Of a stretch of 54,522 nucleotides of DNA, positions 5,091-49,959 are shown piece by piece; the first letter of the stretch is position 1; the number at the start of each line of letters is the position of its first letter. The notes below the pieces were generated by a model. The model saw nothing but the letters and a program-made list of their open reading frames with translations, made no database searches and was not told where the DNA came from. Position numbers and translations under genes: made by a program. This DNA comes from a virus, in the IMG/VR virus record IMGVR_UViG_3300031963_000195, positions 1-54,522 of that record; one strand, written 5' to 3'.

Positions 5091-5488
5091 GTCATCTAGT
5101 ATATGTGAACGGGTTAGGACCAAATTATAAAGGTGAACATATATATGAATTTATTTTTTCAGAATCTGATGAAATTAGTGGTGATTATTGGGACGCAAAA
5201 CCATCGCATGGTCAACCAAAACCTCCAGATTTGGAGTATGTAAAAAAAGTTGGTATACTTAGAAATAGTGGTGTTATTTTTGACTTAATACAGAACTCTG
5301 ACGTTTTTGGAATGGAAGACGCTGTAGATGGTATTATAGCATTAGCTTGGGAAAACGACGAAACTAAAACTAATTTTAAAAAATTGGTATTCTTATTTGG
5401 TGAAGAAGAAAAAATTATAAAAGATAAACTATATTCAAGAGATTTAATTCTTGAATTTGAAAAAGAAATGAGTTATGAAATCGATTAA
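5087..5488 (+). CDS. Hypothetical protein in head operon
   Basis: Unrecognised 133-residue protein beginning MSHLVYVNGLGPNYKGEHIY, with an aromatic N-terminal half (FIFSESDEISGDYWDAKPSH) and an acidic, lysine-rich helical C-terminal half. There are no membrane segments and no catalytic motif that I can identify. The start overlaps the stop of the previous gene by four bases (ATGA), and its own end overlaps the next start by 14 bases, so it is almost certainly translated in one operon with the terminase-side genes. A small conserved structural or assembly factor is the most reasonable guess. Confidence 0.65.
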   Translation: MSHLVYVNGLGPNYKGEHIYEFIFSESDEISGDYWDAKPSHGQPKPPDLEYVKKVGILRNSGVIFDLIQNSDVFGMEDAVDGIIALAWENDETKTNFKKLVFLFGEEEKIIKDKLYSRDLILEFEKEMSYEID

Positions 5489-6173
5489 AGAAAAATACAA
5501 CGAATTAATTCAAAAAGGTTTTTCCAAAAAAACCCTTTATTCTTTAAATGAGACTGAACTTTCAGATCTTCATAAGCTAATTACTGAACAAGTAAAACAA
5601 ACAACTAAACAAGTTACAACCACAACAATTCCCTCGTCTGTTGCAAAATCAACCGGTGCTAATGTTGGTAATGTCGATATAAAACAGGACGCTTCCGGAA
5701 ATATTGTTGCAACAAAAATGGAGGGTGAAATGAAAGAAGGTGGAAAGAAAAAAGTAAATCCTTGGGCGGTTTGTACTTCAAATATGGGTAAAAAGTTTGG
5801 TACAACTGAAAGAAGTGAGTGGAATAAAGAACAAATGGATGAATATGAGCGTTGTATTATGGATGTTAAAAAATCCGCAAAAAAATATAAGAAAAAAATT
5901 GATGAAGAATTGGAAAAACAACTTGTAAAGTTAGTTGAAAAGCATATCTCACCAAGAATGACTAAGGGTGATTTACTTAATTTAATTGAGCAAGGAACAA
6001 AAGAAGCGCCAACAAAACCTAAAGAAAAGGAAAAGGAGCGTACAAAACCTTGGCATCCCGGAAGAGATCCCCGTCCCGGTGTTGAACCAGCACCGAAAGC
6101 TAAAAAATCGGATGAGAAGAAAAAAGAGGATATTATGAAAATAATTGCAAAAATATTAAACAATAATGAGTAA
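5475..6173 (+). CDS. Tagged hypothetical protein; candidate internal head protein
   Basis: The 232-residue protein has an N-terminal segment LNETELSDLHKLITEQ (residues 24-39) that matches the tag shared by several proteins in this window and ends in ITE|Q, a fit to the T4 prohead protease rule. A Thr/Val-rich stretch follows, then NPWAVCTSNMGKKFGTTERS and ERCIMDVKK, then a basic, proline-containing tail (KPWHPGRDPRPGVEPAPK). The two cysteines around residues 99 and 132 may be structural. It overlaps both neighbours and sits just upstream of the terminase, so packaging into the capsid is plausible. The function after packaging is unknown. Confidence 0.65.
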   Translation: MKSIKEKYNELIQKGFSKKTLYSLNETELSDLHKLITEQVKQTTKQVTTTTIPSSVAKSTGANVGNVDIKQDASGNIVATKMEGEMKEGGKKKVNPWAVCTSNMGKKFGTTERSEWNKEQMDEYERCIMDVKKSAKKYKKKIDEELEKQLVKLVEKHISPRMTKGDLLNLIEQGTKEAPTKPKEKEKERTKPWHPGRDPRPGVEPAPKAKKSDEKKKEDIMKIIAKILNNNE

Positions 6174-7410
6174 AAAATTTAAATTATCTGAAGCTCCGGT
6201 TGATTATGGTGATTATCCGGAAAGAATGGACCCAGAAACTGAAAGAAAAGTTTCAAGTCCCGAAAATCCATTTGCAAAAGCATTAAGAGGTGGTGTTTCT
6301 GATGTTGAAAAATTAATCGGTTCTCGATTTAAAAAAGTCGTTGATAAACTCAAAGCTGCGACTGGAATTGAGGATTTGAGCAATCATGAGGTTACTAGTA
6401 GCTTGGTCAAAGATTTGTTTAATAATATAAATAGCGTTGTTCAAATTGAATCGAGATATAAAGAAGAGTTAACAGAATTAGCGATTAAATTAGCGATAGA
6501 CGCTGCTGATGCTGAAGAAGATTGGTATGAGATTGAGGCTCGTCTTAATCCGATTGGGATTGATACTTCAAAGTTTAGATTGAAAAAAGAAGCGCCGCCC
6601 AAATTTCAACCCTCAACTTCATTTGAAATGGATACTTTAACAGATGAGGAAAAATTTGAATTAGAAAAGGCAAAAAGAAATATAATTAATGCTATTGTAC
6701 AAGGCTCATCAAAAAAAGGACATTATATTTTTCAATTACCAGAAGTTAAAGAAAAGTTAGATGAAATTAATCCTTCGTTATATGATTTTTACTCTAAAAT
6801 AATGGCGGTTAATGATATTATGTATTTTACTATGGATAAGCTTATTGAAGCTGCGAGTAAAACTGGTCGGGGTGTTGCTGGTAAAGTACAAACAATGAGT
6901 AATGATGATGAAGACGATGAAAATGCACCAGACATAAAAATTGTTGCTGAAGGATTAATGTTTCCGATATTAGTTCATGAAATAATAAAAGGTATTGAGG
7001 AAGCAAAAGCTAAATATGGTTTACCCGAAGACCCTGAAATGGCGATGAAAGTTATGGGTCAAACAGATGTTCTTTCTCAGGAACCCATGCAATTAAGAAT
7101 TGGACCTGAATTAGTGGAGAAAATAAAGTTTGCGTTACCCGCAGAAATTTTTGAACCCGAAAATAAAGGTTTAATTAGCTTTTTCCAAACTGAACTTTAT
7201 TCTTTACCAGCTAAAGAATTCTTAGATGTTATTAGTGATATTGTTTCTGAAAATGATGCTGAGAATAGAAACGGAATAAAAAAATTCAATGATTTATTGA
7301 AAATTGCAAAAAACAAAAAAAACCAATACGACAAATCAAAAAAATCAACTGATTCGGGTGATGATGAGGATGAGGAATTTGGTTCATTTTTAAAGGACTT
7401 AGGTTTATAA
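6166..7410 (+). CDS. Hypothetical protein upstream of terminase
   Basis: Unrecognised 414-residue, mostly helical and acidic protein. It begins MSKKFKLSEAPVDYGDYPER, where LSE|A at residue 9 also fits the prohead protease rule, although the flanking sequence does not match the common tag. The C-terminus is a charged tail with KKNQYDKSKKSTDSGDDEDE. It starts eight bases before the previous stop and ends just before the hairpin preceding the terminase. T4 has the small terminase gene (16) in this position, but the length and sequence give no support for that assignment. A head or packaging role is suggested by position only. Confidence 0.65.
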   Translation: MSKKFKLSEAPVDYGDYPERMDPETERKVSSPENPFAKALRGGVSDVEKLIGSRFKKVVDKLKAATGIEDLSNHEVTSSLVKDLFNNINSVVQIESRYKEELTELAIKLAIDAADAEEDWYEIEARLNPIGIDTSKFRLKKEAPPKFQPSTSFEMDTLTDEEKFELEKAKRNIINAIVQGSSKKGHYIFQLPEVKEKLDEINPSLYDFYSKIMAVNDIMYFTMDKLIEAASKTGRGVAGKVQTMSNDDEDDENAPDIKIVAEGLMFPILVHEIIKGIEEAKAKYGLPEDPEMAMKVMGQTDVLSQEPMQLRIGPELVEKIKFALPAEIFEPENKGLISFFQTELYSLPAKEFLDVISDIVSENDAENRNGIKKFNDLLKIAKNKKNQYDKSKKSTDSGDDEDEEFGSFLKDLGL

Positions 7411-7417
7411 AATCACT

Positions 7418-7436: not shown

Positions 7437-7446
7437 ATAATATATA

Positions 7447-9228: not shown

Positions 9229-12200
9229 ATGGAAGATGAAAAACTAACAATATGGCAACGACTTTCTAAAGGATTTGGTCCAAACTCATTACTTGGACAA
9301 GAAAGTCCAACATTTAAATTTGATAAGAAGGTTTTATTAAAAACACCGAATAAGCAAGAGTACGAAAGAGAAAAACTCCAAGCACAACAAACAGCTTATT
9401 TAACATACCAATGGAGTAAGATTGAAAATAATTTATATACACAATCAGTATATTATGAACCCACTAGATTAGCATCATATTATGATTATGAGAGTATGGA
9501 ATATTTTCCGGAAATTTCAGCAGCATTAGATACATTTTCGGAAGAATCTACAACGCCAAATCAAGATGGTCAAATGTTACAGATTTATTCTGAATCAAAA
9601 AGAATTAAATCAATTTTAACAGATTTATTCTATAATCAATTAGATATTAACACAAATCTACCCATGTGGACAAGAAATACTTGTAAGTATGGTGATAATT
9701 TTGTGTTTTTAAAACTAGACCCAGAAAAAGGTATTGTTGGTTGTTTTCAACTACCAAATATTGAAATTGAACGTATTGAAAAGGGGATGGTTAAACGTCC
9801 GGGTGGGACACCAAATAGCGACCCAGAAAATAAACAAATGAAATTCTCTTGGAAACAAAAAGATTTAGATTTTAATACTTGGGAGGTCGCACATTTTAGA
9901 TTATTGGGTGATGATAGAAAATTACCATACGGTACTTCGATGTTAGAAAAAGCGAGAAGAATTTGGAAACAATTAGTTCTTGCTGAAGATGCAATGTTAA
10001 TTTATAGAACATCTAGAGCACCGGAAAGAAGAGTATTTAAAGTTTTTGTTGGTAATATGGATGATAAAGATGTTGAAGCATATGTGCAAAGATTTGCAAA
10101 TAAATTTAAGCGAGACCAAGTAGCGGACCCAAAAACGGGTAATGTGGATTTACGTTTTAATCAAATGGCGGTAGACCAAGATTATTTTGTACCGGTTAGG
10201 GATATTGCTGCACCTAATCCGATTGATACATTACCGGGAGCGTGTATTGATTTAAATACCAGAATTCCCCTTCTTGATGGTAGAACTTTAACTTTACAAC
10301 AAATAATTAATGAGTGGGATAATGGTAATAGAAACTTATGGGTTTATTCTTGTGACCCAAATACAGGGTCCGTACATCCGGGTATGGTAACTTGGGCTGG
10401 TGTAACAAGAAAAGACGCTGAAGTTATTAAAATTACATTAGACAATGGTGAAGAGGTGATTACAACTCCAGACCATAAATTTGTTCATAGAACTAGAGAA
10501 TTTGTTGAAGCGAAAGATTTAATTGTTGGGGATAGTTTAATGCCTTTTTATTCAAGAACCGAAAAAATAAAGACCAACACTAATGATTATCACCAAATTT
10601 TTGATAATGAAAAAAATCAATGGGTTTTTACGCATAGAATGGTAAAAAACAGTACTGTTGGTAGTTCTTTAGTAAAAGAATGGGTTTTTAATTCTGAATT
10701 TAAAAATAAAGATAAAAAAATAATTCACCATAAAGACCATAATCGCTTTAATAATAATCCAAATAATTTACTAATAATGAATGGTGAAGACCATTTAAAA
10801 TATCACCAACATATCATAAAAGAAACGATTTGGAAAGATATTGAACTTAATAAGAAAAAAATTTCAGAAGGTATTAAAAATTATTTAAATAATCTTTCTT
10901 CAGATGAATTACAAAAAAGACATGAAAGAATTAATAATCCAATATCAAAAGCTAAAACAACTAAAAAGTTATTGGAATGGAATAAAAATGATGAAAATTT
11001 AAAAAATAAAGGTAAAAAAATTTCAAAAGCTTATACAGAAGAAAGAAAAAATAAGATAAAGGAATTAAATTTAATAAGGTGGTTGAATGATGATTATCGA
11101 AATAAAGTTTTTTCTAAAAAACAAACAATAACATTTGATGATTATATATATAATTCATTTGTTAGTGAATTTAAAAAGACTTTACGTGCTGATTTAGCGT
11201 TAAAGAACTTAAATAATTCTTTTGAATTTATTTCACATTTTAAACAAATTAATGAGGAAATTAGAAGTTCGTTAACAAACTTAAATGAATTCACGCAAAA
11301 CCATGTAGATAAAATGGTTAAACAACAAGGGTTTAAAAATTTTACTGAATGGAAACATTTTGAGTGTAAAAAGAGAGGATTTAAAAATATTCGTCAATGG
11401 AAATATAATGTTGAGAAAGAAATTTATTTTAACCATAAAATAACAAAAATTGAATGGTTAACAAATAAAATTGACACTGGTACGATTACGGTTGATGGTA
11501 ATGAATTATATTCAAAATCTCACACTTTTGCTATTGAAAGTGGTATTTTTATTAAAAATTCTAACCTTTCTGAAATTGCAGATATAGAATACATCCAGAA
11601 AAAACTTTTAACAGCATTAAGGATACCAAAAGCGTTCCTTGGGTTTGAAGAAGTTGTTGCTGATGGTAAAAATCTTGCGTTACAAGATATTCGTTTTGCT
11701 AGAACAATTAACAGAATACAAAAAAGTATGTTAGCGGAATTAAATAAAATTGCTATTATACATTTATTTATTTTAGGTTTTGAAGATGAACTTTCTAACT
11801 TTACATTAGGATTAACAAACCCATCAACACAAGCTGATTTATTAAAGGTTGAGGTTTGGAAAGAGAAAATCTTACTTTATAAAGACGCTGTTGCAGGAAT
11901 TGAGGGTATTGCACCAACTTCACATTCTTGGGCTAAAAAACATATTCTTGGTTTCTCGGATGATGAAATTAAACTTGATATTCAACAACAAAGAATTGAA
12001 AAGGCGGTCGCAAAAGAACTTGAGAACACACCAAATGTGATTGTAAAAACAGGTATTTTTGATAGTGTTGATGCAATCTACGGTCAAAAAGGTGGTGGTA
12101 CTCAAGCTGGAACTCCCCCTCAAGAACCAACATCTGATATGACAATGCCTGAAACTAGTCCAGCATCATCACCATCAATAACTCCACCAGAAGCTCCTGA

Positions 12201-12369
12201 GAGCGCACCAACTGAAACTCCAACAACAGTACCTGAATCAAAACAGGAAAGAGTAAATATTTTACTTGAAGGTGGTCTTTTAAATGAAGATGAAGAAATC
12301 GATTTGAGTAAAGCTAGAATTCAATTAGGTGAAATGGAAGAACATTTAAATAAACTTCTAAAGTCGTGA
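9229..12369 (+). CDS. 20: Portal vertex protein (T4 gp20-like) interrupted by an in-frame intein
   Basis: The 1046-residue precursor contains a 439-residue intein at 339-777; removing it leaves a 607-residue portal, compared with about 524 in T4. Extein signatures include the N-terminal YYEPTRLASYYDYESMEYFP region, LPYGTSMLEKARRIWKQLVL near residues 232-251, and SNLSEIADIEYIQKKLLTAL directly after the intein. These match gp20-type portals of marine T4-like phages. The portal is the dodecameric ring through which DNA enters and to which the neck attaches. The C-terminus adds a Pro/Thr/Ser-rich linker and an acidic helix not typical of T4. Splicing would be needed to make a functional portal. 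Confidence 0.93.
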   Translation: MEDEKLTIWQRLSKGFGPNSLLGQESPTFKFDKKVLLKTPNKQEYEREKLQAQQTAYLTYQWSKIENNLYTQSVYYEPTRLASYYDYESMEYFPEISAALDTFSEESTTPNQDGQMLQIYSESKRIKSILTDLFYNQLDINTNLPMWTRNTCKYGDNFVFLKLDPEKGIVGCFQLPNIEIERIEKGMVKRPGGTPNSDPENKQMKFSWKQKDLDFNTWEVAHFRLLGDDRKLPYGTSMLEKARRIWKQLVLAEDAMLIYRTSRAPERRVFKVFVGNMDDKDVEAYVQRFANKFKRDQVADPKTGNVDLRFNQMAVDQDYFVPVRDIAAPNPIDTLPGACIDLNTRIPLLDGRTLTLQQIINEWDNGNRNLWVYSCDPNTGSVHPGMVTWAGVTRKDAEVIKITLDNGEEVITTPDHKFVHRTREFVEAKDLIVGDSLMPFYSRTEKIKTNTNDYHQIFDNEKNQWVFTHRMVKNSTVGSSLVKEWVFNSEFKNKDKKIIHHKDHNRFNNNPNNLLIMNGEDHLKYHQHIIKETIWKDIELNKKKISEGIKNYLNNLSSDELQKRHERINNPISKAKTTKKLLEWNKNDENLKNKGKKISKAYTEERKNKIKELNLIRWLNDDYRNKVFSKKQTITFDDYIYNSFVSEFKKTLRADLALKNLNNSFEFISHFKQINEEIRSSLTNLNEFTQNHVDKMVKQQGFKNFTEWKHFECKKRGFKNIRQWKYNVEKEIYFNHKITKIEWLTNKIDTGTITVDGNELYSKSHTFAIESGIFIKNSNLSEIADIEYIQKKLLTALRIPKAFLGFEEVVADGKNLALQDIRFARTINRIQKSMLAELNKIAIIHLFILGFEDELSNFTLGLTNPSTQADLLKVEVWKEKILLYKDAVAGIEGIAPTSHSWAKKHILGFSDDEIKLDIQQQRIEKAVAKELENTPNVIVKTGIFDSVDAIYGQKGGGTQAGTPPQEPTSDMTMPETSPASSPSITPPEAPESAPTETPTTVPESKQERVNILLEGGLLNEDEEIDLSKARIQLGEMEEHLNKLLKS
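10243..11559 (+). mobile_element. Portal intein with HNH homing endonuclease domain
   Basis: The in-frame insertion runs from Cys1 (CIDLNTRIPLLDG) to a terminal Asn before Ser+1 (IKN|SNLSEI). Intein residues 75-78 are TPDH, the block B motif with the conserved Thr and His. The C-terminal part reads SHTFAIESGIFIKN, typical of blocks F and G, except that the penultimate residue is Lys rather than His. Intein residues about 128-190 carry an HNH nuclease motif, IIHHKDHNRFNNNPNNLLIM followed by EDHLKYH. The insertion falls at a conserved portal site, LPGA/SNLSEI. The endonuclease presumably spreads the intein to intein-less portal alleles. Confidence 0.9.
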
Positions 12370-13655: not shown

Positions 13656-14378
13656 ATGAAAATCTTAGGACCAAACGAAATAGGACAAAGAGGTATTCTT
13701 ATTGAAATGGATGCTGGTTATATTTCACCAAGTGATGAACGTAATTTAGCAATCATTAAAGAATCTAAAAACTTATTGGATTATTCAAAACCATTTGAAT
13801 TTTATGCTGTATTACAAAAATACGGAGTACCAAACAGAAATGGTAGAATTTATCCTGAAAGTATATTAAAAAGAGAATCTGAAAATTATTTAAAATTAAT
13901 CAAACAAGGGAAAGCTATGAGTGAATTAAATCACCCAGAATCTTCCCTTATTGATTTGGATAGAGTTTCACATCTTATTACAGATATGTGGTGGGACGGT
14001 CATATTTTAATGGGTAAATTAAAGTTATTAACATCACCCGGATTCCATGAAAGAGGTATTGTATCAACAAAAGCGGACATTGCTGCTAATTTGTTAAGAC
14101 ACGGTGCAACTTTGGGTATTTCCTCAAGAGGTGTTGGTTCATTGGTTAAAAAGGGTGAACAAAATGAGGTTCAATCAGATTTTGAATTAATTTGTTTTGA
14201 TTTGGTATCATCACCTTCAACACCGGGTGCGTATCTCTTTAGTGATGTTAATGATAGAAACAAATTTGAAGAGAATATTGAGGAAGAGAAAAAATTGAGA
14301 CAGCAGCCTATTTCAGATAAAAAAGAAATTAAGTCACTTGACTTAATGAAAAGATTATCCGATTATTTGGGAAAATAA
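13656..14378 (+). CDS. 21: Prohead core protease (T4 gp21-like)
   Basis: The 240-residue serine protease matches the T4 gp21/U9 type: NRNGRIYP at 60-67, the catalytic histidine in ELNHPE (His93), and the nucleophile region GISSRGVG (Ser156/157), followed by a conserved FELICFDLVSSPSTPGA segment. The enzyme is packaged in the prohead and cleaves capsid, core and internal proteins after [LI]xE, then digests itself. In this window the expected site exists in the major capsid protein (LINE|A), and matching sites end the N-terminal tags of several accessory proteins. Length is close to T4 gp21 (212). Confidence 0.93.
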   Translation: MKILGPNEIGQRGILIEMDAGYISPSDERNLAIIKESKNLLDYSKPFEFYAVLQKYGVPNRNGRIYPESILKRESENYLKLIKQGKAMSELNHPESSLIDLDRVSHLITDMWWDGHILMGKLKLLTSPGFHERGIVSTKADIAANLLRHGATLGISSRGVGSLVKKGEQNEVQSDFELICFDLVSSPSTPGAYLFSDVNDRNKFEENIEEEKKLRQQPISDKKEIKSLDLMKRLSDYLGK

Positions 14379-14715: not shown

Positions 14716-16263
14716 ATGTCAGAAAAAAAATCATTAGTAGAAGATACTCTAATCCAAATGAGAAATTTGGAGGAAGCTATCCAAGAAAATGCAAAAGGAA
14801 TACTTGCTTCAACCATGAAGGAAGAAATCAGTGATTTAGTAAAAGAGTCTTTAAATGAGACTGAAACAGAAGAGGAAATGGATGAAATGGAAATGGAGTC
14901 CAAGACCGATGATAAAGTTGACGAGCAAGAGTCATCCGATTTAGAAATGGACATGGATATGGAAGATGAAGTTAGTGACGAATCTGAAGAAGAGTCTGAT
15001 GAAGATTCAGAAGAGATGATGGGCGCTGAAATGAATCTTGACATGGACGTAGAAGATGAAGTCCCGATGGACTTAACAAACGCATCAACAGAAGAGCTTT
15101 TAAAAGTTTTTAAAGCTATGGGTGAAGAAGATGGTATTATCGTTAAAAAAGAAGATGATAAAATCCATCTAAAAGATGATTCAGAAGGTGTTGAATATAT
15201 GATTGATTTAGGAGAAAGCATTAATGAACAACCTCTTGATTTGGGCGATGAGTCTGAGGAAGAAGAATTTGACTTTAATTTAGATGATGAATCTGAAGAT
15301 GAGGAATTTGAATTCGATGAGTTTGAAGAAAGAATGCCAATGCGTAAATCACATAGAATTCGCAAAATGAAAAGAGATGAAGAAATGCATGAACAATCAT
15401 TTGCGGATGAGACAGAGTCTGAAAAACAAGCCGATATTGATGCGATGTTAGACGATATCTTTAATGAATCAGAAGTATCTGAGGAGGAAGAGGTTGTCTA
15501 TGAAATTGAGCTAGATGAAGAGGATGATAATGAAGATATGACGGAAGAAACTGAAGAAACAGATGAGGAAATGAATGAAACCTATGATTTAGAGGAAGCA
15601 TTCAAACCAAAAATGTTCAAAGGTAAAAATCCTGAAAATAAAACAAATAAAGGTCCGAAAAAGATGTTAATGAAAAAACCTACCGGAAAAATGTTTGGTA
15701 TGACACCAAAAATCGGTAAAACAACAAAAACATCGGAATCTGATGTAAAGAAAGTTGAGACCAAAGAAGCAGCAAGAACCTTGGGTATGGGTAGTAAATT
15801 TAGAAAAGGTGGTTTACCAAAACCTAAAGCTGCCCCAAGACATCTCGGAGAAGATTTTGATTTTGAAGCGATGAACGCTGAGTTAGTTTCTTTAAGAGAA
15901 AAAAATGAAGAATATAGAAAAGCATTAAATATCTTCAGAGAAAAACTTAATGAGGTTGCTATATTCAATTCAAATCTTGCTTATGCGACAAGACTTTTCA
16001 CCGAACATTCAACTTCTAAGCAAGAAAAAATTAATATTCTTAGAAGATTTGATGGTGTTGAGACAATTAAGGAATCTAAAAATCTTTACACAACAATAAA
16101 AGAGGAATTAAGTTCCAAGGGTGTTACACCAATAACCGAATCGATTGAGTCAAAAATTGAAAAAACTCCATCTAGCGGTTCTGCGGCTAATTTGATTGAG
16201 TCAAAAACTTATGAGAATCCGCAGTTCTTGAGAATGAAAGACCTCATGAATAAAATAAAATAA
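14716..16263 (+). CDS. 22: Prohead core scaffold protein (T4 gp22-like)
   Basis: The 515-residue protein is extremely acidic over residues about 45-320, with long Asp/Glu/Met runs, followed by a basic Lys/Pro/Gly-rich stretch (about 300-375) and a helical C-terminal region of about 130 residues (LVSLREKNEEYRKALNIFRE). It ends in NPQFLRMKDLMNKIK. Position immediately before the major capsid gene, composition and C-terminal helices fit the gp22 scaffold, which is degraded by the prohead protease. Candidate sites such as AIQE|N (residue 24) and SINE|Q (residue 171) agree. It is nearly twice as long as T4 gp22 (about 270), so primary sequence alone does not prove the assignment. Confidence 0.8.
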   Translation: MSEKKSLVEDTLIQMRNLEEAIQENAKGILASTMKEEISDLVKESLNETETEEEMDEMEMESKTDDKVDEQESSDLEMDMDMEDEVSDESEEESDEDSEEMMGAEMNLDMDVEDEVPMDLTNASTEELLKVFKAMGEEDGIIVKKEDDKIHLKDDSEGVEYMIDLGESINEQPLDLGDESEEEEFDFNLDDESEDEEFEFDEFEERMPMRKSHRIRKMKRDEEMHEQSFADETESEKQADIDAMLDDIFNESEVSEEEEVVYEIELDEEDDNEDMTEETEETDEEMNETYDLEEAFKPKMFKGKNPENKTNKGPKKMLMKKPTGKMFGMTPKIGKTTKTSESDVKKVETKEAARTLGMGSKFRKGGLPKPKAAPRHLGEDFDFEAMNAELVSLREKNEEYRKALNIFREKLNEVAIFNSNLAYATRLFTEHSTSKQEKINILRRFDGVETIKESKNLYTTIKEELSSKGVTPITESIESKIEKTPSSGSAANLIESKTYENPQFLRMKDLMNKIK

Positions 16264-16286: not shown

Positions 16287-18146
16287 ATGGGTGCATTATT
16301 AGAAAGCGGTCTTGTTGGTAACATTGGTCTTAAGCATCTTAAGGTTATCAAGGAAGACACAATTAACAAGTGGGACAAATTAGGATTCTTAGAGGGTCTT
16401 AGAGGTCACTTAAAGGAAAACATGGCTCAGTTGTATGAAAACCAAGCTTCACATCTTATTAACGAAGCTGCTTCAACAACTGATAGCGGTTCATTTGAAA
16501 CCGTAGTTTTCCCGATTATCAGAAGAGTTTTCTCAAAACTCTTGGCGAACGATATCGTATCAGTTCAAGCCATGAACCTTCCTATCGGTAAGTTATTCTA
16601 CTTTATTCCGAGAATTCAGGGTTATACCGGCGCTACTGCTGATGCCGCTATCCCCGGTGGTTTCTCAGATTCAGGTCAGCACTACGCTCCGGTTGGTTCT
16701 CCCGGTAACTATCCCGGAGATCCTAACACTGGATATCCCCCTGCTTCAAATGCTTATGGAAAGAATCTTTACGATCTCTTCTATGAGGGTAATGAGCCGG
16801 GATTAAATCCTGCCGGTCTTTTCGATTACTCAAAGGGTAGATTCCTCATCGTAACTGCTAACACACAAACTGTTGCTTGGAGCGGTTCTGACCTTATCGC
16901 TTCTGCTTACACCGCTGGTGAATTCAGAAAGATTTTAGTCGCTCTTTCAGGTTTCTCAACTGTAGGTGCTGGTAAGCTTATTGGTCCTGATGGTCAAGAA
17001 ATGGATACAGAGTCATTCTTGTCAGATCTTACTCTTTATACTTCAAACGCAACAGTTGCTTCACAATTAGGTACTTCGACAATAACTCCTCTTCTTTACA
17101 GAGTTGTAACTCAGAAGTATGGTAAGGGTATTGTTGAGTACGGTACCACAACTCAGGCTCCGTTTAACAGAACTACAACTGGTGGAAATGGTGGTTACTT
17201 TGATAACATCTGCTCACCGACCGGTATCATTTACCTCGAAGTTGACGCTCAAGTCCCTGTTTGTATTTCATGTAATAACGCTAACACAATTGATGGTTAC
17301 TCTGGTGCCACTATTACATCTGCCGCTTGGTCAGGTTCATCTGGAAGTGGTCAAATTATGGCAGCTTGGAAGCGTTACGAAGAACTCGAATTTGAAGACA
17401 AGATTGGTGAAGTTTCGTTTGACCTTCAGTCAGTAACTGTTTCAGTAACTGAAAGAAAGTTAAGAGCACAATGGTCACCTGAACTCGCTCAAGACGTTGC
17501 GGCTTTCCACAACATTGATGCTGAGGCTGAATTAACCGCTCTCTTATCTGAACAAGTTGCTGCTGAAATCGACAGAGAAATCTTAAGAGATTTAAGAAAG
17601 GGTGCTGCTTGGACATTAAGATGGGATTACAATGGTTGGAAGAGATTAGGTACCGCTGCTGTTCCTTATACCCAAAAGGACTGGAACCAGACCCTCATCA
17701 CCGCTATCAACCAAATCTCAGCACAAATCCACAAGTCAACCTTAAGAGGTGGTGCTAACTGGATTGTTGTATCATCTGAAATCTCAGCTATCTTCGACGA
17801 TCTCGAATACTTCCACGTTTCAAACGCTGCTCCTGAACAGGATCAGTACAACATGGGTATTGAGAAAATCGGTACATTAGCTGGAAGATATCAGGTTTAC
17901 AGAGATCCTTACTTCCCACCCAACACTGTGTTGCTCGGTCACAAGGGAACCTCTCTCTTAGATACTGGTTACGTCTACGCTCCGTATGTACCTCTCCAGT
18001 TAACTCCGACAATGTACAATCCGTTCAACTTTACCCCGATTAAGGGTATCATGACCCGTTACGCCAAAAAAATGGTAAATAACCGGTTCTATGGTAGAAT
18101 TACTGTTGACGGTGTTCGTTCATTTGACTTAAGAGAATTGAGATAA
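16287..18146 (+). CDS. 23: Major capsid protein (T4 gp23-like)
   Basis: The 619-residue protein carries the gp23 pattern: an N-terminal basic delta domain (KEDTINKWDKLGFLEGL), then ENQASHLINE|AAST, where LINE|A at 60/61 corresponds to the T4 maturation cleavage after residue 65, then the conserved VFPIIRRVFSKLLANDIVSV and QAMNLPIGKLFY segments. The C-terminus holds MYNPFNFTPIKGIMTRYAKK. It forms the hexamers of the capsid shell and is about 100 residues longer than T4 gp23, with Gly/Ser/Asn-rich insertions around residues 130-165 and 330-365. Codon use is strikingly richer in C-ending codons (AAC, TTC, TAC, CTC) than its neighbours, as expected for the most expressed phage gene. Confidence 0.96.
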   Translation: MGALLESGLVGNIGLKHLKVIKEDTINKWDKLGFLEGLRGHLKENMAQLYENQASHLINEAASTTDSGSFETVVFPIIRRVFSKLLANDIVSVQAMNLPIGKLFYFIPRIQGYTGATADAAIPGGFSDSGQHYAPVGSPGNYPGDPNTGYPPASNAYGKNLYDLFYEGNEPGLNPAGLFDYSKGRFLIVTANTQTVAWSGSDLIASAYTAGEFRKILVALSGFSTVGAGKLIGPDGQEMDTESFLSDLTLYTSNATVASQLGTSTITPLLYRVVTQKYGKGIVEYGTTTQAPFNRTTTGGNGGYFDNICSPTGIIYLEVDAQVPVCISCNNANTIDGYSGATITSAAWSGSSGSGQIMAAWKRYEELEFEDKIGEVSFDLQSVTVSVTERKLRAQWSPELAQDVAAFHNIDAEAELTALLSEQVAAEIDREILRDLRKGAAWTLRWDYNGWKRLGTAAVPYTQKDWNQTLITAINQISAQIHKSTLRGGANWIVVSSEISAIFDDLEYFHVSNAAPEQDQYNMGIEKIGTLAGRYQVYRDPYFPPNTVLLGHKGTSLLDTGYVYAPYVPLQLTPTMYNPFNFTPIKGIMTRYAKKMVNNRFYGRITVDGVRSFDLRELR

Positions 18147-20202: not shown

Positions 20203-21804
20203 ATGAAAGTTAAAAAAGAAATAATTTTTAGATTTTTGGATTTAAGATTTAGTCGATATACGTTGGTTAAATCAAAATGTTCTGTTACTGGTGATTTGAG
20301 TTTTATCGTACCAGCTTGGGCAATGTATGCAATTGAATGCGGTAATTACGAGACATTAAGTGAAGAGGAAATTGAAAGTCTTAATGATTTTTTGGATGAT
20401 TTGGTTAAAACTTATGGTAATGCTGTGTTAGCTTTTGGGGATGAATCATATTTTTCAACAATCAATGATATTGATAATTTAGGTGGTGACGTTTTTCAGG
20501 CTAGTTTAGTTCCAAGTGTAGTAAATACCTATATTGTGGATTTAAATAACGATAAATTAATAATGAAACACGAATTTAAAAGTAATTATGTTTTTTTTAA
20601 GGATATAATATTTGAAATGAATTCTATTTTTAGTTTAAAAGAAGACGATTACAATTCACTTAGAGAAATTATTAATGAGTGGGTTGAGGACAGATTTAAT
20701 ATACCAAGAAGTTTATCGACATTTCATACATTCTCAAAAATAAATTATCGTAACGATTTAATTTCATGTATAATGCGTAAGGCAGTTGAGACAAAAAAAC
20801 TAGATTATCTTAATAATAAAAAAAATAATGTTTCAGAAAATTCAAGTTCTAGATTTGCTGGTGAATATAATGGACCGATTGAGTTGGGTTTAAGAAAGTG
20901 GAAAAATCCTGAACTTAAACCTTTTAGTGAAATTTCTTCGCATTTAGCAAATAACGATAGTAAAAGCAAAACACTTAAAGATAACATAAAACGTATTGTT
21001 GGAATGTGGGAAAAAGGTTCAGATGGAACATATGATATACCAACACATGATGTTGATACAATTAATGAGGATTTAGCTGTTTGGTTTGGTAAGAAAAAGA
21101 AACCAAAAGGTAGTAAACAACCACAAGGTCCGTGGGTTAATATTTGCAAAAAAGATAAAAATGGTAAACATCCCCCATGCGGTAGAGGTGAAGCAAAAAC
21201 ATCTGCATATCCAAAATGTCGTGGATATGCTGCTGCTAGAAGAATGTCAGATGAAGCAAAAAGAAAAGCTTGTTCTCAAAAAAGAAGAGCGGAAAAAAAA
21301 GAACCAAAAACTGGAAAAGGAAATAAACCAACAATGGTTTCACATAAAAAGAAAGTTAAAATTAAGGAATCCGACCTTTATAATATTATAAAGCGAGTTC
21401 TTCTTGAGCAGGAGGAAGAAAAAAGAACTGTTACATTTCCTGCGGGAGCATTTAAATCTTTCATAACATCATCAAATGAAAAATTTGTTAAGATTCTTAA
21501 TAACAAATATGATAGAGTTATTGTTAGTGGAGATTTGGATTTAGATGAGACAGATATTAAGATTTTACCAAATAATCTTGAAGTTAAGGGTATTCTCTTC
21601 TTAAGAGGGTCTTTGATTAAAGAATTACCAGAAAATCTTAAAGTTAATGGACAAATAGATTTAAGAAGTACTAATATTAAATCTTTACCGAATAATCTTG
21701 TACATGAAAAAGGTTTTATTTGGATATTAGACACACCGTTAAATTACAATGAAGAATTAATAAATCATTATGTGGATAAAAATTACGGGTTTTATAGATA
21801 TTAA
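20203..21804 (+). CDS. Composite protein: unknown N-domain, basic Cys motif, internal capsid-tag, leucine-rich repeats
   Basis: From ATG 20203 the protein has 533 residues in clear modules. Residues 1-295 are unrecognised. Residues about 308-365 contain WVNICKKDKN, PPCGRGEAKTS, YPKCRGYAAARRMSDEAKR and KACSQ, a basic motif with four cysteines that I recall from phage and giant-virus proteins. Residues 383-403 contain KKVKIKESDLYNIIKRVLLE followed by Q, the shared tag that is N-terminal in other proteins. Residues about 405-533 are the same TFPAGAFKSFITSS region and repeats (ILPNNLEVKG, LPENLKVNG) as the gene at 47809. Cleavage at LLE|Q would release the repeat domain. An internal ATG at 21334 could alternatively start a shorter tagged protein. 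Confidence 0.75.
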   Translation: MKVKKEIIFRFLDLRFSRYTLVKSKCSVTGDLSFIVPAWAMYAIECGNYETLSEEEIESLNDFLDDLVKTYGNAVLAFGDESYFSTINDIDNLGGDVFQASLVPSVVNTYIVDLNNDKLIMKHEFKSNYVFFKDIIFEMNSIFSLKEDDYNSLREIINEWVEDRFNIPRSLSTFHTFSKINYRNDLISCIMRKAVETKKLDYLNNKKNNVSENSSSRFAGEYNGPIELGLRKWKNPELKPFSEISSHLANNDSKSKTLKDNIKRIVGMWEKGSDGTYDIPTHDVDTINEDLAVWFGKKKKPKGSKQPQGPWVNICKKDKNGKHPPCGRGEAKTSAYPKCRGYAAARRMSDEAKRKACSQKRRAEKKEPKTGKGNKPTMVSHKKKVKIKESDLYNIIKRVLLEQEEEKRTVTFPAGAFKSFITSSNEKFVKILNNKYDRVIVSGDLDLDETDIKILPNNLEVKGILFLRGSLIKELPENLKVNGQIDLRSTNIKSLPNNLVHEKGFIWILDTPLNYNEELINHYVDKNYGFYRY

Positions 21805-35278: not shown

Positions 35279-37099
35279 TTAAGATTGGTATCTTTTTAAT
35301 ATTTTGGATATTATAGGATTTCTGACAATATCTTCTTCGGTAAATTCAAATAATCCGATTTCATCAATATTTTGTAATCTTTTCATTGCATCATATAAAC
35401 CCGATTTTTCTAATTGTTTAAATTTATCAGATTGCTCAACATCACCAATTATAAAGAATTTACTATTATGACCTATTCTTGTTAAAATAAGTTTCATTTC
35501 CGCAGGTGTACAGTTTTGACTTTCTTCAAGAAGTAAAATTGAATTTTCAACCGAAATTCCGCGAATAAATGAAATTGACATAACTTCAATTATGTTAAAA
35601 AACTCTAATTTACCAGCAACACCTTCACCTAATATTTTATTTAATAAATAAAATGATGCGTACATATATGGGTTCATTTTTTCTCGTTCATTTCCCGGAA
35701 GCGAACCTAACCTGCTTTCACCACCCTCTACGGCTGGTCGTATAATTATAATTTTTTCATATGGTGTTGTGGGATCTAATATTAATTCTATTGCAGTTCT
35801 TAATGTGAGGTGTGAATTATGTGTAACTATAAAATTATCCGTTAAATAAAGACCTTTTTCTGAATTAACAGTAATACATTTAGCTTCTTTATTACCAATA
35901 AATTCAACATTTGTTATATATCGTTTTGGTAAATATCTACTTTTTGGTTTGACCAATTTTAATTTTCTTTTTAATCTAAAAGGAGTAATTTCGTTTGGTA
36001 AACAAATACATAATTCGTATGCTAATAATCCCATAATTTTTTCGCCTTCTTTATTTCTATAAAATGGTTGTTTTAACCATCTTTTAACAACACCACCTAA
36101 ACTATTAACTAAAAAAACCATATCATCTGCTAATTTTTTAGATGTGGTTGTAAAAAATACTGAACCAGATTTTGAATCTACTGTACCGTCAGTATCCATT
36201 AGACCTTGTAATAGAGAAATTCTATTTTCAATCGAATTGAACATATATTCATAAGGTATAAATTTATTTTCACTTTTTTTATAAAGTAAATTTAATTGGT
36301 TTAGCTCATTCAAAAATTCGTTTTTCCCGTTCTCACCAATAATTGAATATTTATATTTACCTTTTGGTTTGTTTAGGTGAATATTTTCTGGAATTAAAGC
36401 TTTTATGTTCTCAACAATTTCATTATCTGCACATGTAAACGTAATGTATTGTGTTAATCCCCCATCACCAATAAGTACCCCCAATATATATGGGTCAATT
36501 AATAATTTTTGTTCATTAAATTGAACAGGTTTTGTAACTGGAATTGAATGATTTTTATCACCTCTTTTTGTTGTTAATGTTTCTTTAATTTTTTTTAGTG
36601 TTTTAACACTATAATCTTTTGGTGAAGAAATTCTTTTATTTAATCTATTTTCACCGACTCGTTTTCTGGCATTTCTCTCATAATAAGTTTTTGTATACCA
36701 TAAATGATCTTCACATGATTCGGTAAAAGTACCGTCATTAAATAATACTCTATAAATCGGCTTTTCCCCTTGTGGATGAACCGCAATAACCTCAACCGGG
36801 TTTCCATTTTCATCAATAACAAAATCTCCTACGACTATATCACCCATATTAACCATTCCGGTGGGTGTAATTATTTTGGCATCAATTGGTTGTGCTTTTC
36901 CTGTACCAGCACTTCCTGAACAAATTGTAATTTCTTTTTCTTTTAAGAGTTGATAAAATTTTTTTTGGTTTTCGTTTAAAAATTTTTCTTTTGGTCTTTT
37001 TGTTATGATATTAGCAATTAAATCTTTCTTATTTATTTCCTTTGGTTCTTCAGGAACTTGATTTACCGTTTTTGGTTTTGCTTTTTGTTTTGCTGGCAT
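35279..37099 (-). CDS. phoH: PhoH-like ATPase interrupted by an intein in its Walker A motif
   Basis: The 606-residue precursor has extein residues 1-68 and 429-606 (246 after splicing) that make a PhoH-family ATPase. The Walker A motif is rebuilt as SAGTGK|SHLTLRTA across the splice. Downstream are ENSILLLEESQNCTPAEMKL (Walker B, with Glu where most PhoH proteins have Asp), RIGHNSKFFIIGDVEQSD, and the terminal helical segment. PhoH proteins are widespread in phages of marine T4-like type; they bind ATP and have been linked to RNA metabolism, but their phage role is unproven. The intein disrupts the nucleotide-binding loop, so function depends on splicing. Confidence 0.9.
   Translation of the reverse strand: MPAKQKAKPKTVNQVPEEPKEINKKDLIANIITKRPKEKFLNENQKKFYQLLKEKEITICSGSAGTGKAQPIDAKIITPTGMVNMGDIVVGDFVIDENGNPVEVIAVHPQGEKPIYRVLFNDGTFTESCEDHLWYTKTYYERNARKRVGENRLNKRISSPKDYSVKTLKKIKETLTTKRGDKNHSIPVTKPVQFNEQKLLIDPYILGVLIGDGGLTQYITFTCADNEIVENIKALIPENIHLNKPKGKYKYSIIGENGKNEFLNELNQLNLLYKKSENKFIPYEYMFNSIENRISLLQGLMDTDGTVDSKSGSVFFTTTSKKLADDMVFLVNSLGGVVKRWLKQPFYRNKEGEKIMGLLAYELCICLPNEITPFRLKRKLKLVKPKSRYLPKRYITNVEFIGNKEAKCITVNSEKGLYLTDNFIVTHNSHLTLRTAIELILDPTTPYEKIIIIRPAVEGGESRLGSLPGNEREKMNPYMYASFYLLNKILGEGVAGKLEFFNIIEVMSISFIRGISVENSILLLEESQNCTPAEMKLILTRIGHNSKFFIIGDVEQSDKFKQLEKSGLYDAMKRLQNIDEIGLFEFTEEDIVRNPIISKILKRYQS
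35816..36895 (-). mobile_element. PhoH intein with LAGLIDADG homing endonuclease
   Basis: The in-frame insertion of 360 residues (precursor 69-428) runs from Ala1 (AQPIDAKIITPTG) to the terminal His-Asn before Ser+1 (FIVTHN|SHLT). Intein residues 61-65, CEDHL, hold the block B histidine. Two dodecapeptides, ILGVLIGDGG (137-146) and LLQGLMDTDG (228-237), mark a LAGLIDADG endonuclease. Ala1 instead of Cys or Ser is the class of inteins that bypass the first acyl shift. The insertion splits the P-loop between Lys and Ser, a classic intein site. Confidence 0.92.
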
Positions 37100-44385: not shown

Positions 44386-44670
44386 ATGAGAACAAAAAAT
44401 AAAAAACCAACAAGAATAACTGAAAAACAGTTAGTAGCAATACTTAAAAAAGTAATTAATGAGCAAGATTCTTCAGAATATGATGATAATGAAGATGAAA
44501 AAGAAGAACATATTAAATTTATTGAAGATGCGGTATATGATTCGGCAATGAGTATTATAGGAAATTTAATAGCGGTTATTGATGACAACTATGAAGAAGG
44601 TATTGTTTTTGCTTTAGAGGAATTGGATTCTATTAAAAAAATTATAATGGATGTAAAAACAAGTTATTAA
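44386..44670 (+). CDS. Tagged small acidic protein; candidate internal head protein
   Basis: The 94-residue protein starts MRTKNKKPTRITEKQLVAIL, then KKVINE|Q, a match to the shared tag with a prohead-protease-type end at residue 26. The remaining 68 residues are acidic and helical (SSEYDDNEDEKEEHIKFIED, then ALEELDSIKKIIMDVKTSY). There are no enzymatic motifs. It is followed after one base by a second tagged gene and is preceded by its own promoter-like motif. Confidence 0.65.
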   Translation: MRTKNKKPTRITEKQLVAILKKVINEQDSSEYDDNEDEKEEHIKFIEDAVYDSAMSIIGNLIAVIDDNYEEGIVFALEELDSIKKIIMDVKTSY

Positions 44671-44671: not shown

Positions 44672-45085
44672 ATGAAAAATTTATTAAAAATTACAGAAGA
44701 CGAAAAAAAGCATATTTTAACTATGCACAAAACCAAAATTAATGAAAGTGATTTTGGTAGAATTGCTGGCGCTATTGCGGCAACAGGAGCAATAATGACA
44801 CTAATATTGGCGCAAAGAGCGGTCGATATTTATGATTCAGAAGGAAATTCTGTTGAGGCTAATGTTGGTGATACATATACTGGTATTGTAACTGAAATGG
44901 TAGCAAAACCAAAAATGGGATTTGTTGTTAAAATGGAAACAGATGATGGTCATACTTTAGATTTCATGACATATTACAATAATTTTGTAACAGGTGATAA
45001 AATTAAGGTTGTTATTGGACGAGAATTTAATTCAGGTGGAATGATGGTGTTTCCTGATGTAACACACACAGAAAAAGTTAAATAA
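44672..45085 (+). CDS. Tagged small protein with SH3-like body; candidate internal head protein
   Basis: The 137-residue protein starts MKNLLKITEDEKKHILTMHK, then TKINE|S, a more divergent version of the shared tag. A short glycine/alanine-rich hydrophobic segment follows (AGAIAATGAIMTLILAQRAV), perhaps a membrane or amphipathic helix. The rest (VEANVGDTYTGIVTEMVAKP, then VVKMETDDGHTLDFM) is strand-rich, in the style of a small SH3-like barrel. It is co-directional and contiguous with the previous tagged gene and ends before a strong bidirectional terminator. Confidence 0.65.
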   Translation: MKNLLKITEDEKKHILTMHKTKINESDFGRIAGAIAATGAIMTLILAQRAVDIYDSEGNSVEANVGDTYTGIVTEMVAKPKMGFVVKMETDDGHTLDFMTYYNNFVTGDKIKVVIGREFNSGGMMVFPDVTHTEKVK

Positions 45086-46439: not shown

Positions 46440-46443
46440 TTTT

Positions 46444-47804: not shown

Positions 47805-47808
47805 AATT

Positions 47809-48570
47809 ATGAAAAAGATAAAATTAACAGAATCAGATTTATATAGAATTGTTAGAAAGGTTCTTCTTGAGCAAGAGGAAGAAAAGAGAAGTTTTACATT
47901 TTCTCCGGGAACATTTGCGTCTTTTATAACATCATCATCAGGTGAAAGATTTGTTAAACATCTTAATAACAAATATGATGAGGTTATTATTAATGGTGAT
48001 TTGGATTTAGATGGAACACCAATTCAATCCTTACCTGATAATCTTCATGTTGGTGGGGATTTGAATTTATATGGAACACCAATTCAATCCTTACCGGATA
48101 ATCTTTATGTTGGGAGAAATTTGGATTTAAGAGGAACACCAATTCAATCCTTACCGGATAATCTTTATGTTGGGAGAAATTTGGATTTACAAGGAACACC
48201 AATTCAATACTTACCGGATAATCTTCATGTTGGGGGAAGTTTGTGGTTAAATGGAACACCAATTCAATACTTACCGGATAATCTTCATGTTGAGGGAAGT
48301 TTGGATTTAAGAGGAACACCAATTCAATCCTTACCGGATAATCTTTATGTTGGGGGATATTTGAATTTACATGAAACACAAATTCAATCCTTACCGGATA
48401 ATCTTTATGTTGGGGGATATTTGAATTTACATGAAACACAAATTCAATCCTTACCGGATAATCTTTATGTTGGGGGGACAATTTATATTAATGGAATACC
48501 TTTAAATGATAATGATAAGTTGGTTGCAAAATATAAAGAAAAATATAGAATTGATAGAGCACTTATTTAA
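47809..48570 (+). CDS. Tagged leucine-rich-repeat protein; candidate internal head protein
   Basis: The 253-residue protein has the cleanest version of the shared tag, MKKIKLTESDLYRIVRKVLL then E|Q, followed by a conserved linker (FTFSPGTFASFITSSSGERF), then eight 20-residue repeats of GTPIQSLPDNLxVGGxLxLx, and a cap (INGIPLNDNDKLVAKYKEKY). The linker also occurs, diverged, in the composite gene at 20203. The repeats look like an LRR-type solenoid and the tag like a capsid-targeting peptide. The last two repeat units are identical DNA, implying recent expansion. If cleaved after LLE, the whole repeat domain would be released into the head. Confidence 0.85.
   Translation: MKKIKLTESDLYRIVRKVLLEQEEEKRSFTFSPGTFASFITSSSGERFVKHLNNKYDEVIINGDLDLDGTPIQSLPDNLHVGGDLNLYGTPIQSLPDNLYVGRNLDLRGTPIQSLPDNLYVGRNLDLQGTPIQYLPDNLHVGGSLWLNGTPIQYLPDNLHVEGSLDLRGTPIQSLPDNLYVGGYLNLHETQIQSLPDNLYVGGYLNLHETQIQSLPDNLYVGGTIYINGIPLNDNDKLVAKYKEKYRIDRALI
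48018..48497 (+). repeat. Tandem 60-bp repeat, eight units
   Basis: Units begin at 48018, 48078, 48138, 48198, 48258, 48318, 48378 and 48438. They share accaattcaat or acaaattcaat, ccttaccggataat and atgttggg words with the array at 1-300. The units from 48358 to 48477 include a perfectly duplicated 60-base block. Confidence 0.9.
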
Positions 48571-49150
48571 CCTTCTTAGCCTTTGTAATTTTACCCTCAA
48601 AAATTGTTTTACCAACTTTGAACTGGATAGTTTCATTTACTTTTGATGTATTTTCAATCAATAACCCATTTTCCTCTAAAAGTTCTTCAAATACTTCGCG
48701 CATCATTGACTTTAATTCATTTTTATTCGGTAATGATGTAATTTGTTTTGATTGAACATTAGACGGAGTTTCTTGTCGTTTTGTACCCATCAATCTGCTA
48801 GCTTTCTCAACTAATTCATCAGATAGTGCTGTTGTTGGTGGTTGCGGTTGCTGAATGGGGTGTTCAATCATTAATTTCTTAATTTCATCTGGAAGTCTTG
48901 AATTTAAAATTCTATCCTTAACAGGAACCGCTGAATTAATTGGTTTTGGTTTTACTTGCTGTTCTGAAAGATATTCCTGTGGGATATTATATTTAACATC
49001 GGGAACTTCAAAATCGTCAACCTGAGGTCTTTCTACATTTATTCTAGTATTTTCACTTATTCCTATATCACTAGTCTGACCTCTAGGAATTTTATTGTGT
49101 TTATCCATTATTTTTTTGGATATCATTAGTTTTTCAATAAGTGCGTCCAT
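48563..49150 (-). CDS. Hypothetical protein, head-proximal type
   Basis: Unrecognised 195-residue protein with a low-complexity Pro/Gln middle (HPIQQPQPPTTALSDELVEK) and a helical C-terminal region ending in a strand-like KFQ segment (IQFKVGKTIFEGKITKAKKV). It contains YLSEQQ, resembling a protease site, but no tag. It overlaps the LRR gene on the other strand by eight bases at its 3' end. A virion-assembly role is guessed from the co-directional run of unknown genes 51548 to 48563. Confidence 0.55.
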   Translation of the reverse strand: MDALIEKLMISKKIMDKHNKIPRGQTSDIGISENTRINVERPQVDDFEVPDVKYNIPQEYLSEQQVKPKPINSAVPVKDRILNSRLPDEIKKLMIEHPIQQPQPPTTALSDELVEKASRLMGTKRQETPSNVQSKQITSLPNKNELKSMMREVFEELLEENGLLIENTSKVNETIQFKVGKTIFEGKITKAKKVK

Positions 49151-49155
49151 AGTTT

Positions 49156-49959
49156 TTAGAATTTAGCATTAATAATAAGACGATTCATGGATTTGTCACC
49201 AGTTCTGTTATAATTTGGTCTAACTTCATTAAATTTTTCATCGGTAGGGATGTAAGTCATGATTTTATCAACCCTAAATAAACGCCAACCCGGAAGTGGT
49301 TGTGTACCCAAAAAATCTGTGTGTGATGCACCCAAAAAGTCCCAAGCTCTTAATACTTGATTACCAGCTTTTGAGTAACCAAAAGCAACAGGTTCAATTT
49401 CTCTATTACCTTTACCTCCGGGTTCATCACCATCATAATACATGACCGTAATTCGTTTATTTTTTATCGAATCCATAATCGAATCAATTTTATTTCCAGT
49501 TTTTGGAACATCAGTTGGTATTTCTGGTTCATATTCGTCTGGTCTAAAATTCTTGATTATAAGTTTAATCGCATCATCGGTATAACCAGCAGATTTTAAA
49601 TCACCAACTAAATCTTCAGATGGTTCATATTTTCTTTTGAATGTTGTTGTATTAATTAATTCTTTTGCAACAGCATCCATAAGATTTTTATCCATACCCG
49701 TATTTTTAAGTATGGATGCGGTAATTTTACCAAACTCTTGAACAGTAATTCGCCCTTCTTTTATTGCGTCAATAAGTTCTTGACCTGTTTTAGCGACAAC
49801 TGGATTACCTTCAGAATCTACGTAGGTAATACGTTTAAATCTTGAAACAGAATCTAATGCATTTTTGACAATATCATCGCTAACCCCCGCAAAAACATCT
49901 TCTCTTGCAGGAATTAATTGTTCAATAATTAAACCGGTTAGCGATTCAAGTAATCTCAT
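49156..49959 (-). CDS. WYL-like domain protein with short tag-like N-terminus
   Basis: The 267-residue protein begins MRLLESLTGLIIE|Q, a short sequence ending in IIE|Q that fits the prohead protease rule. Its C-terminal 100 residues resemble a WYL domain: SIMDSIKNKRITVMYYDGDE, NREIEPVAFGYSKAGNQVLR, AWDFLGASHTDFLG and GWRLFRVDKIMTYIP. WYL domains bind nucleic acids or nucleotides and regulate phage defence and transcription. The middle is helical. It lies in a cotranscribed series of unknown genes and overlaps its upstream neighbour by four bases. Confidence 0.6.
   Translation of the reverse strand: MRLLESLTGLIIEQLIPAREDVFAGVSDDIVKNALDSVSRFKRITYVDSEGNPVVAKTGQELIDAIKEGRITVQEFGKITASILKNTGMDKNLMDAVAKELINTTTFKRKYEPSEDLVGDLKSAGYTDDAIKLIIKNFRPDEYEPEIPTDVPKTGNKIDSIMDSIKNKRITVMYYDGDEPGGKGNREIEPVAFGYSKAGNQVLRAWDFLGASHTDFLGTQPLPGWRLFRVDKIMTYIPTDEKFNEVRPNYNRTGDKSMNRLIINAKF

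Follow-up and report, generated by a model that had tools for sequence, protein, structure and literature searches.

Probable capsid-targeting propeptides of several interchanging classes on unrelated proteins of giant T4-like phages

The virus record IMGVR_UViG_3300031963_000195 of IMG/VR, a 54.5-kb stretch of DNA (54,522 nt) that was analyzed whole and is called the window below, carries a T4-like head module together with a series of otherwise unlike genes whose products share a short peptide, or tag, usually at the N terminus. We report here that these tags very probably are capsid-targeting propeptides, similar in action to the capsid-targeting sequence (CTS) of phage T4 but greatly expanded and interchangeable, and that they end in an [ILV]-x-E triplet at which a gp21-type prohead protease would cut. 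An earlier note on this DNA had proposed N-terminal targeting propeptides and cleavage of this type, and the proposal now has strong support at the level of sequence because the tags end sharply at [ILV]xE, the same rule holds at the capsid maturation site, tags and gp21 co-occur, different tag classes alternate on one cargo without loss of the site, and the T4 propeptides are recovered by the same method. All 54,522 bases of the window are identical to positions 43331-97852 of a 256-kb IMG/VR phage contig (G001), which was therefore taken as the larger genome.

A tag with a sharp end, in several classes and on many bodies

A seed profile made from the window was used to find N-terminal copies of the tag in relatives. 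The tag profile (A1) matches 256 distinct open reading frames (ORFs) in the loci examined, with a Met at or near the start of the tag in 250 of them, and the consensus is approximately MKKIVRLTESDLxxLVKRVIxE/Q, where the slash marks the predicted cut. To guard against circularity, we also used a core-only profile restricted to columns 1-13, from which the Glu is left out; it picked 238 distinct ORFs, 211 of which have the full core and 80 further residues. An [ILV]xE triplet is found at +4 to +14 in 207 of these 211, compared with 29 and 23 in downstream windows, and [ILV]xD occurs in only 7. The residue following the Glu (P1′, n = 208) is Gln in 86 cases, Glu in 30, Ser in 24, Asn in 21, Asp in 11, Gly in 10, Ala in 7, and another in 19. 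Tagged proteins from 94 body clusters, one each (94 of 147 cluster representatives), were aligned; Glu occupies the Glu column in 93 rows and Ile, Val, or Leu occupies P3 in all 94. Information is 3.45 bits at the Glu, 1.56 at P1′, and 0.25 and 0.05 thereafter, with strong conservation covering columns 1-23. Since these rows were picked with the full profile, the alignment illustrates the pattern and does not test it, and since the rows share ancestry, the counts are not independent events. Among 50 gp21-bearing contigs, taken from the larger of 160 loci, A1 matches 26 at E ≤ 0.01 and 23 at E ≤ 0.001 (best, 3e-14), and an exactly reversed decoy profile gives weak matches in two (E 0.002 and 0.007). 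The tag pattern is far beyond chance.

Tags were also sought de novo, as N-terminal peptides common to ORFs without similarity in their bodies, groups of at least three being counted. T4, the positive control, gives one group of three, which we take to be internal proteins I, II, and III. In G001 there is one group, of 17 ORFs, with [ILV]xE near the N terminus in all 17 and in 7 in the control window. The nine tags listed in the earlier note all exist, but nine is thus too low a count for the genome. G102 yields groups of 13, 5, 4, 4, and 3 (in the group of 13, the triplet is present in 13, and in 4 in the control window), G014 groups of 7, 6, 5, 5, and 5, and G012 one group of 3. Flavobacterium phage immuto gives groups of 5, 4, and 3, the 5 looking like Sec signal peptides; crAss001 and phi38:1 have neither a group of at least three nor a gp21 match.

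The tag classes include LTESDL...VIxE, ITEEEKxRIL...LxE, MKDLIRKILRE, MNLQENIxRIKEMMGLxxE, and MKLLxSLxxLIxE. In the ITEEEK class, which includes the form ITEDEKxxIL of ORF 44672, [ILV]xE follows 4-30 residues on in 22 of 22 cases and is present in the next window in 5 of 22; the form MKYLITESK has no clear [ILV]xE site. A pattern for the start MKxITE[ST]QL was tried and set aside: it found 27 stretches, at least 11 of which begin MKKITE[ST]QL on proteins that are alike by eye. Among the five larger records that it found, G145 has seven A1 matches and G141-G144 none, and three of these four carry gp21. G141, G142, and G143, which are such MKKITESQL-pattern contigs with gp21 and without an A1 tag, may carry tags of their own.

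The bodies behind the tags are mostly unrelated, as the earlier note had held. The 230 tagged ORFs (of 256) in which the profile match reaches column 20 and at least 50 aa are left form 147 body clusters (blastp, 1e-4), 117 of them singletons, with a median length of 126 aa and a maximum of 484. When the 94 cluster representatives were scanned, six Pfam families were matched by one protein each (peptidoglycan binding, OmpA, alpha/beta hydrolase, annexin, UPF0227, and DUF6576), and twelve PHROGs, several of them endolysins, were matched once each. As a side observation, tagged proteins of G001 at, for example, 42858, 91118, 116400, 152091, and 226950 have a common FTFSPG... body with LPxxL repeats and look like a multi-copy family.

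The largest cargo cluster, with 21 members, contains the body of ORF 24227, which has a weak C-terminal DUF5872 match below the cut-off of that family. Among its relatives, [ILV]xE lies within 18 aa before the conserved body, which starts YMFFSNL or YMFFQNL, in all 30 distinct sequences, and E22 is invariant in the 28 that were aligned. The N termini themselves vary, belonging to several classes or being internal (MKKTIKLTESQL..., MEKLIKKILKE, MSDLTNIIKKVLRE, MITDNQIRKALRRLHE, and MKKLILTKEQYEKLSKILSE). As shown by this comparison, tag classes interchange on one cargo family with the predicted site kept. In L164 and L127, two members of the family, the tag lies inside a longer ORF with no Met at its start; in these two it would work from an internal position, with the body freed from the upstream part by the cut. 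A second nearly invariant Glu, E98, often in the context [VIM]xE/G (LDE/E in the window), precedes a PSAYANG domain, and this cargo may be cut twice.

The gp21-type protease and the distribution of the tags

The window follows the T4-like order of head genes, with matches to phrog_2, phrog_213, phrog_207, and phrog_138 at 7447, 9229, 13656, and 16287. Both the protease at 13656 (phrog_207) and the LINE/A site of the capsid protein (phrog_138), on which the earlier note had relied, were confirmed. This capsid site is kept as [ILV]xE[AS] in 32 of 33 distinct N termini of relatives, and the 25 that were printed all read LINE[AS]. The N terminus of the protease is also conserved, with GIL[IV]E in 51 of 60 matches, fragments counted in.

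As a comparison set we used 37 random viral contigs and 13 named phages. The random contigs were caught by an arbitrary AT-rich 14-mer, for which 80 of 120 loci were listed and the 37 of at least 19 kb were tested; they replaced crAss-like control loci from a protein search, which turned out to be a single record, 100% identical to crAss001 over the query. A1 matches one of these 50, and that match is partial, and Peptidase_S77 is found in 12 (10 of the 13 named phages and 2 of the 37 random contigs). The 18 gp21 matches in 18 protease-fetched loci were not counted as support, since these loci match by construction, having been fetched with the protease. A tblastn search of the named phages with consensus tags of 23-30 aa gave no match, which is weak evidence with such short queries.

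A strict DNA pattern of the tag finds at least 120 stretches in IMG/VR and 3 in 84,980 cellular genomes, two of the latter lying in one metagenome-assembled genome (MAG) that also has gp21. These tags sit in contigs binned as bacterial: L531 and L532 belong to MAG UBA3650, with its gp21-type match, and look like phage contigs, and L533 belongs to a Bacteroidota MAG without such a match. Of 49 records tested, 21 have gp21, namely 17 of 42 tag-pattern contigs of 40 kb or more, one of two MAGs, and three of five MKxITE[ST]QL-pattern contigs. Among the 42 tag contigs, gp21 is present in all 9 of at least 130 kb and in 11 of 14 of at least 100 kb, and with one gene per 250-350 kb genome it would be expected in 12.5-16.5 of the 42; it is found on tag contigs about as often as their length allows. 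Random contigs have it in 2 of 37 cases (Fisher p 0.0004 vs. tag contigs), and when lengths are matched at 38-130 kb, 8 of 33 tag contigs and 0 of 19 random contigs have it (p 0.02). Co-occurrence of tag and gp21 in related phages, a check suggested in the earlier note, was thus put to use, and the tag is not equally present without gp21.

Tagged genes may also have something in common upstream. In four genomes, 28 of 57 tagged genes have the sequence ATATTTAT in the 45 nt before them, as do 150 of 959 other genes (odds ratio 5.2, Fisher p 1.5e-8). The sequence also precedes the protease gene, the scaffold gene, and a gene identified by eye as tail-sheath-like. Similar boxes are seen near start codons, for example at 14716, 22266, and 47809. 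The box is a possible late promoter; since paralogous copies inflate the figure, late expression is only a hint.

Tags and head genes of the window

The head genes and tags of the window are compiled in Table 1. All eight main tags of the earlier note and its short ninth were found, on rereading base by base, at or inside the ORFs to which it had assigned them.

Table 1. Head genes and tags in the window, with the predicted cut shown as a slash
Feature	Position	Strand	Basis and site
Terminase	7447		phrog_2
Portal	9229-12369		phrog_213
gp21-type prohead protease	13656-14378	+	phrog_207, E 5.7e-42; own N terminus GILIE/M
Putative acidic scaffold/core protein	14716-16263	+	position and composition: 149 D+E, 69 K+R of 515
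Major capsid protein (gp23-type)	16287-18146	+	phrog_138; predicted maturation site LINE60/A61
Tag of ORF 5475-6173	5475-5588	+	MKSIKEKYNELIQKGFSKKTLYSLNETELSDLHKLITE/Q; P1 Glu in LITE/Q
Candidate very short tag of ORF 6166-7410	6166-6192	+	MSKKFKLSE/A
Internal tag in ORF 20203-21804	21334-21408	+	MVSHKKKVKIKESDLYNIIKRVLLE/Q; VLLE/Q; after internal ATG 21334; body with LPxxL-like repeats
Tag of ORF 22266-23789	22266-22337	+	MKNILINDNQLKNLVESVKHILTE/A; ILTE/A
Tag of ORF 23776-24207	24133-24207	-	MKKNIIITESQLETLINSTKRLIKE/R; LIKE/R; body matches Pfam Kyano_Gp96
Internal tag of ORF 24227-25087	24599-24664	-	MKKTIKLTESQLIELINAKIQE/Q; KIQE/Q; internal ATG at 24664
Tag of ORF 44386-44670	44386-44463	+	MRTKNKKPTRITEKQLVAILKKVINE/Q; VINE/Q
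Tag of ORF 44672-45085	44672-44746	+	MKNLLKITEDEKKHILTMHKTKINE/S; KINE/S; ITEDEK class
Tag of ORF 47809-48570	47809-47871	+	MKKIKLTESDLYRIVRKVLLE/Q; VLLE/Q; LPxxL-repeat body
Short tag of ORF 49156-49959	49921-49959	-	MRLLESLTGLIIE/Q; LIIE/Q

ORFs 20203 and 24227, whose tags are internal, are either fusions or have internal starts. The product of 5475, a gene that stays near head genes in relatives, may belong to the head core and not be an effector. Of 20 rows that a loose regular expression caught, 18 have [ILV]xE at the same position; the two without it look like unrelated ORFs, and so does at least L132 among the 18. In G003, the relative of 22266 retains VILTE/A and that of 23776 has VITE/M. 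The tag of 49156 is a class of its own, with MxL...[ILV]xE at the same place in 6 of 6 distinct N termini of its family. The N terminus of 6166 may be a further, minimal targeting peptide: its relatives begin MKRKINE/[AQ], MKSKRIKE/Q, or MKKKQIVRE/A, with ETRE and DTKE in 2 of the 12 rows printed (of 19 distinct). At 30869-31237, the N terminus INLTKESILAMMQEIYNELVE/Q is tag-like, a likeness that may be due to chance since conservation continues past the Glu. At 3903-5090, [IV]NE stands some 38 residues from the start in most of the printed relatives, and the window has LQTE there.

As for the head genes, 14716 sits between the protease and capsid genes, which is the scaffold position; its product has no PHROG match, and the basic tag presumably docks on it. 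In the portal ORF, portal matches cover residues 39-338 and recur near 786-852, with HNH-endonuclease matches at 448-579 between them, and the insert is probably an intein. An intein-like insert is also seen after SAGTGK in a PhoH-like ORF (35279-37099, named by eye), where it ends VTHN/S. Between 37187 and 44297 lies a block of genes that by eye look like glycosyltransferases, methyltransferases, and an acyltransferase.

Competing explanations and what the tags would mean

In T4, a ten-residue tag common to three small proteins loads proteins into the head. The tags described here resemble this CTS, carried by IPI, IPII, and IPIII, in being short N-terminal propeptides shared by unrelated bodies, in ending at L/I-x-E (with V also at P3), and in belonging to the same kind of head with gp21 encoded in the genome. 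They differ in length (mostly 21-38 aa vs. 10-19 in T4), in P1′, in number (17 ORFs in one genome vs. 3), and in forming several interchanging classes. Since A1 finds nothing in T4 at E ≤ 0.01, they would be a functional analogue of the T4 CTS (MKTYQEFIAE) and not a detectable homologue. Excerpts of the literature describe the L/I-x-E cleavage rule and the CTS of T4 (PMC9026906, PMC3012670) and diverse internal proteins sharing only a conserved CTS (PMC3012670), and the propeptides of T4 internal proteins resemble one another (PMC9026906). Similarly, phiKZ-like phages and SPN3US are described as maturing a large number of internal head proteins with a gp21-related protease (PMC9026906), a likeness to the phages studied here, although neither Peptidase_S77 nor A1 matches the phiKZ record. 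In phage P1, the N-terminal 30 residues of DarB suffice for loading a reporter into the head; there, the excerpt shows the signal for one protein, names P1's own protease, Pro, and gives no [LI]xE rule (PMC9024508). The gp21-bearing isolate immuto has shared N-terminal peptides of its own, followed by [ILV]xE (a MENFDLKKFLVEN form is found on 4 ORFs), but the tag sequences are other ones and there is no A1 match. We class the present system as an expanded, multi-class capsid-targeting system.

A shared N-terminal peptide could have other roles. The tag might be a helix, peculiar to the lineage, for sorting to or docking on some other target, such as the host polymerase, a membrane, or a compartment of the infected cell, with [ILV]xE as the end of the helix. 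Such a role would suit a profile confined to one lineage, and in the one structure model of a cargo, which is of low confidence (pTM, the predicted template modeling score, is 0.44), a helix spanning residues 9-46 passes through the site; a fold search with this single model gave no match at E ≤ 0.001. However, Glu is chosen over Asp in 207 vs. 7 of 211 ORFs, the triplet is still there in 22 of 22 members of the ITEEEK class when its spacing varies, it recurs at the capsid site, and it stays in 30 of 30 members of the 24227 cargo family when tag classes differ, all of which makes a mere helix improbable. It is a good deal harder to see the tag as a functionless mobile 5′ cassette of promoter, start, and leader spread by recombination: near-identical copies do exist within G001, and the enrichment of ATATTTAT means that upstream DNA may be partly shared, but across 94 body clusters the tags diverge in sequence while their pattern, with the Glu, stays unchanged, leaving this explanation very little chance. 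That the tags are leaders of ribosomal peptide natural products we regard as virtually out of the question. A conserved leader before a variable part is what one would see, but such leaders typically end in Gly-Gly, whereas the tags end in Glu and precede long bodies (median 126 aa, maximum 484); no maturation enzyme was among the family matches of the scanned proteins, none having been searched for specifically.

A separate alternative accepts targeting and holds that the cargos serve chiefly in the head core or in condensing DNA and are not injected effectors, which is unlikely but has to be taken seriously. Relatives of 5475 and 24227 recur in gp21-centred loci, and T4 IPIII, according to an excerpt, aids head assembly (PMC9026906). 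On the other hand, 117 of 147 body clusters are singletons, a turnover expected more of arms-race cargo than of structural proteins, and one genome holds several tagged copies with LPxxL repeats.

Several results weigh against capsid targeting itself. None of the ten named phages with gp21 matches A1, and since A1 occurs in a single large lineage, shared ancestry accounts for part of its association with gp21. Three tag contigs of 107-130 kb, which may be fragments, and one of the two MAGs lack a gp21 match. Three phages with gp21 (syn9, HTVC008M, and Mel-JY01) have no de novo group of at least three, and the control window is nearly as rich in [ILV]xE in several small groups (5 vs. 4 of 5 in G014, 3 vs. 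3 of 3 in G012 and immuto), so that those classes rest on fewer grounds. P1′ is mostly Gln (86 of 208, with Ala in 7), whereas the T4 sites found by the de novo search carry Ala. The 14716 scaffold is not enriched in [ILV]xE, with 19 triplets vs. a shuffle mean of 15.2 (158 of 1000 shuffles reach 19), and the cargo structure model shows no separation of tag and body. PA5oct, an isolate with gp21 whose record flags proteins detected by mass spectrometry, served as an outside check; its detected virion proteins are not marked by an N-terminal [ILV]xE (16 of 89 vs. 55 of 302), its one de novo group, of 3, has the ending in 1 of 3, and no shared tag of the kind described here was found in it by the de novo search. 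The triplet alone is meaningless without a shared tag. No virion proteomics for the lineage was found in literature searches, which were aimed at immuto and PA5oct, none naming the lineage.

If the tags are capsid-targeting propeptides, the basic, amphipathic N-terminal tag would dock on the acidic scaffold core during prohead formation, and the gp21-type protease would cut after the Glu of [ILV]-x-E, a site defined by a sequence rule. The cut would free the cargo from the core and trap it in the maturing head with the DNA. Because targeting and release would both reside in the tag, any body could be carried. At the weakest step of this scheme, some cargos would probably enter the host by injection and act on it in the manner of T4 IPI.

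Literature searches found no description of such tags, in a coverage mostly outside subscription journals and preprints, and a search on words for the tag returned only irrelevant papers. We give roughly even chances to a wider picture in which uncultured giant T4-like phages use an address-tag system, with several interchanging classes ending at the prohead protease site, that loads at least a dozen fast-changing, unrelated proteins per virion for delivery to the host. The tags would then define hundreds of unknown families of injected effectors, and internal tags would let one ORF deliver a cut-out part. If the tags work like the T4 CTS, the head cargo of a large group of uncultured giant phages could be read from sequence alone, in the way that the effectors of bacterial secretion systems came to light through marker domains. 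New short tags would be on offer for loading proteins into phage heads, and what enters the host from a giant phage as infection begins would, if this is true, become a testable list.

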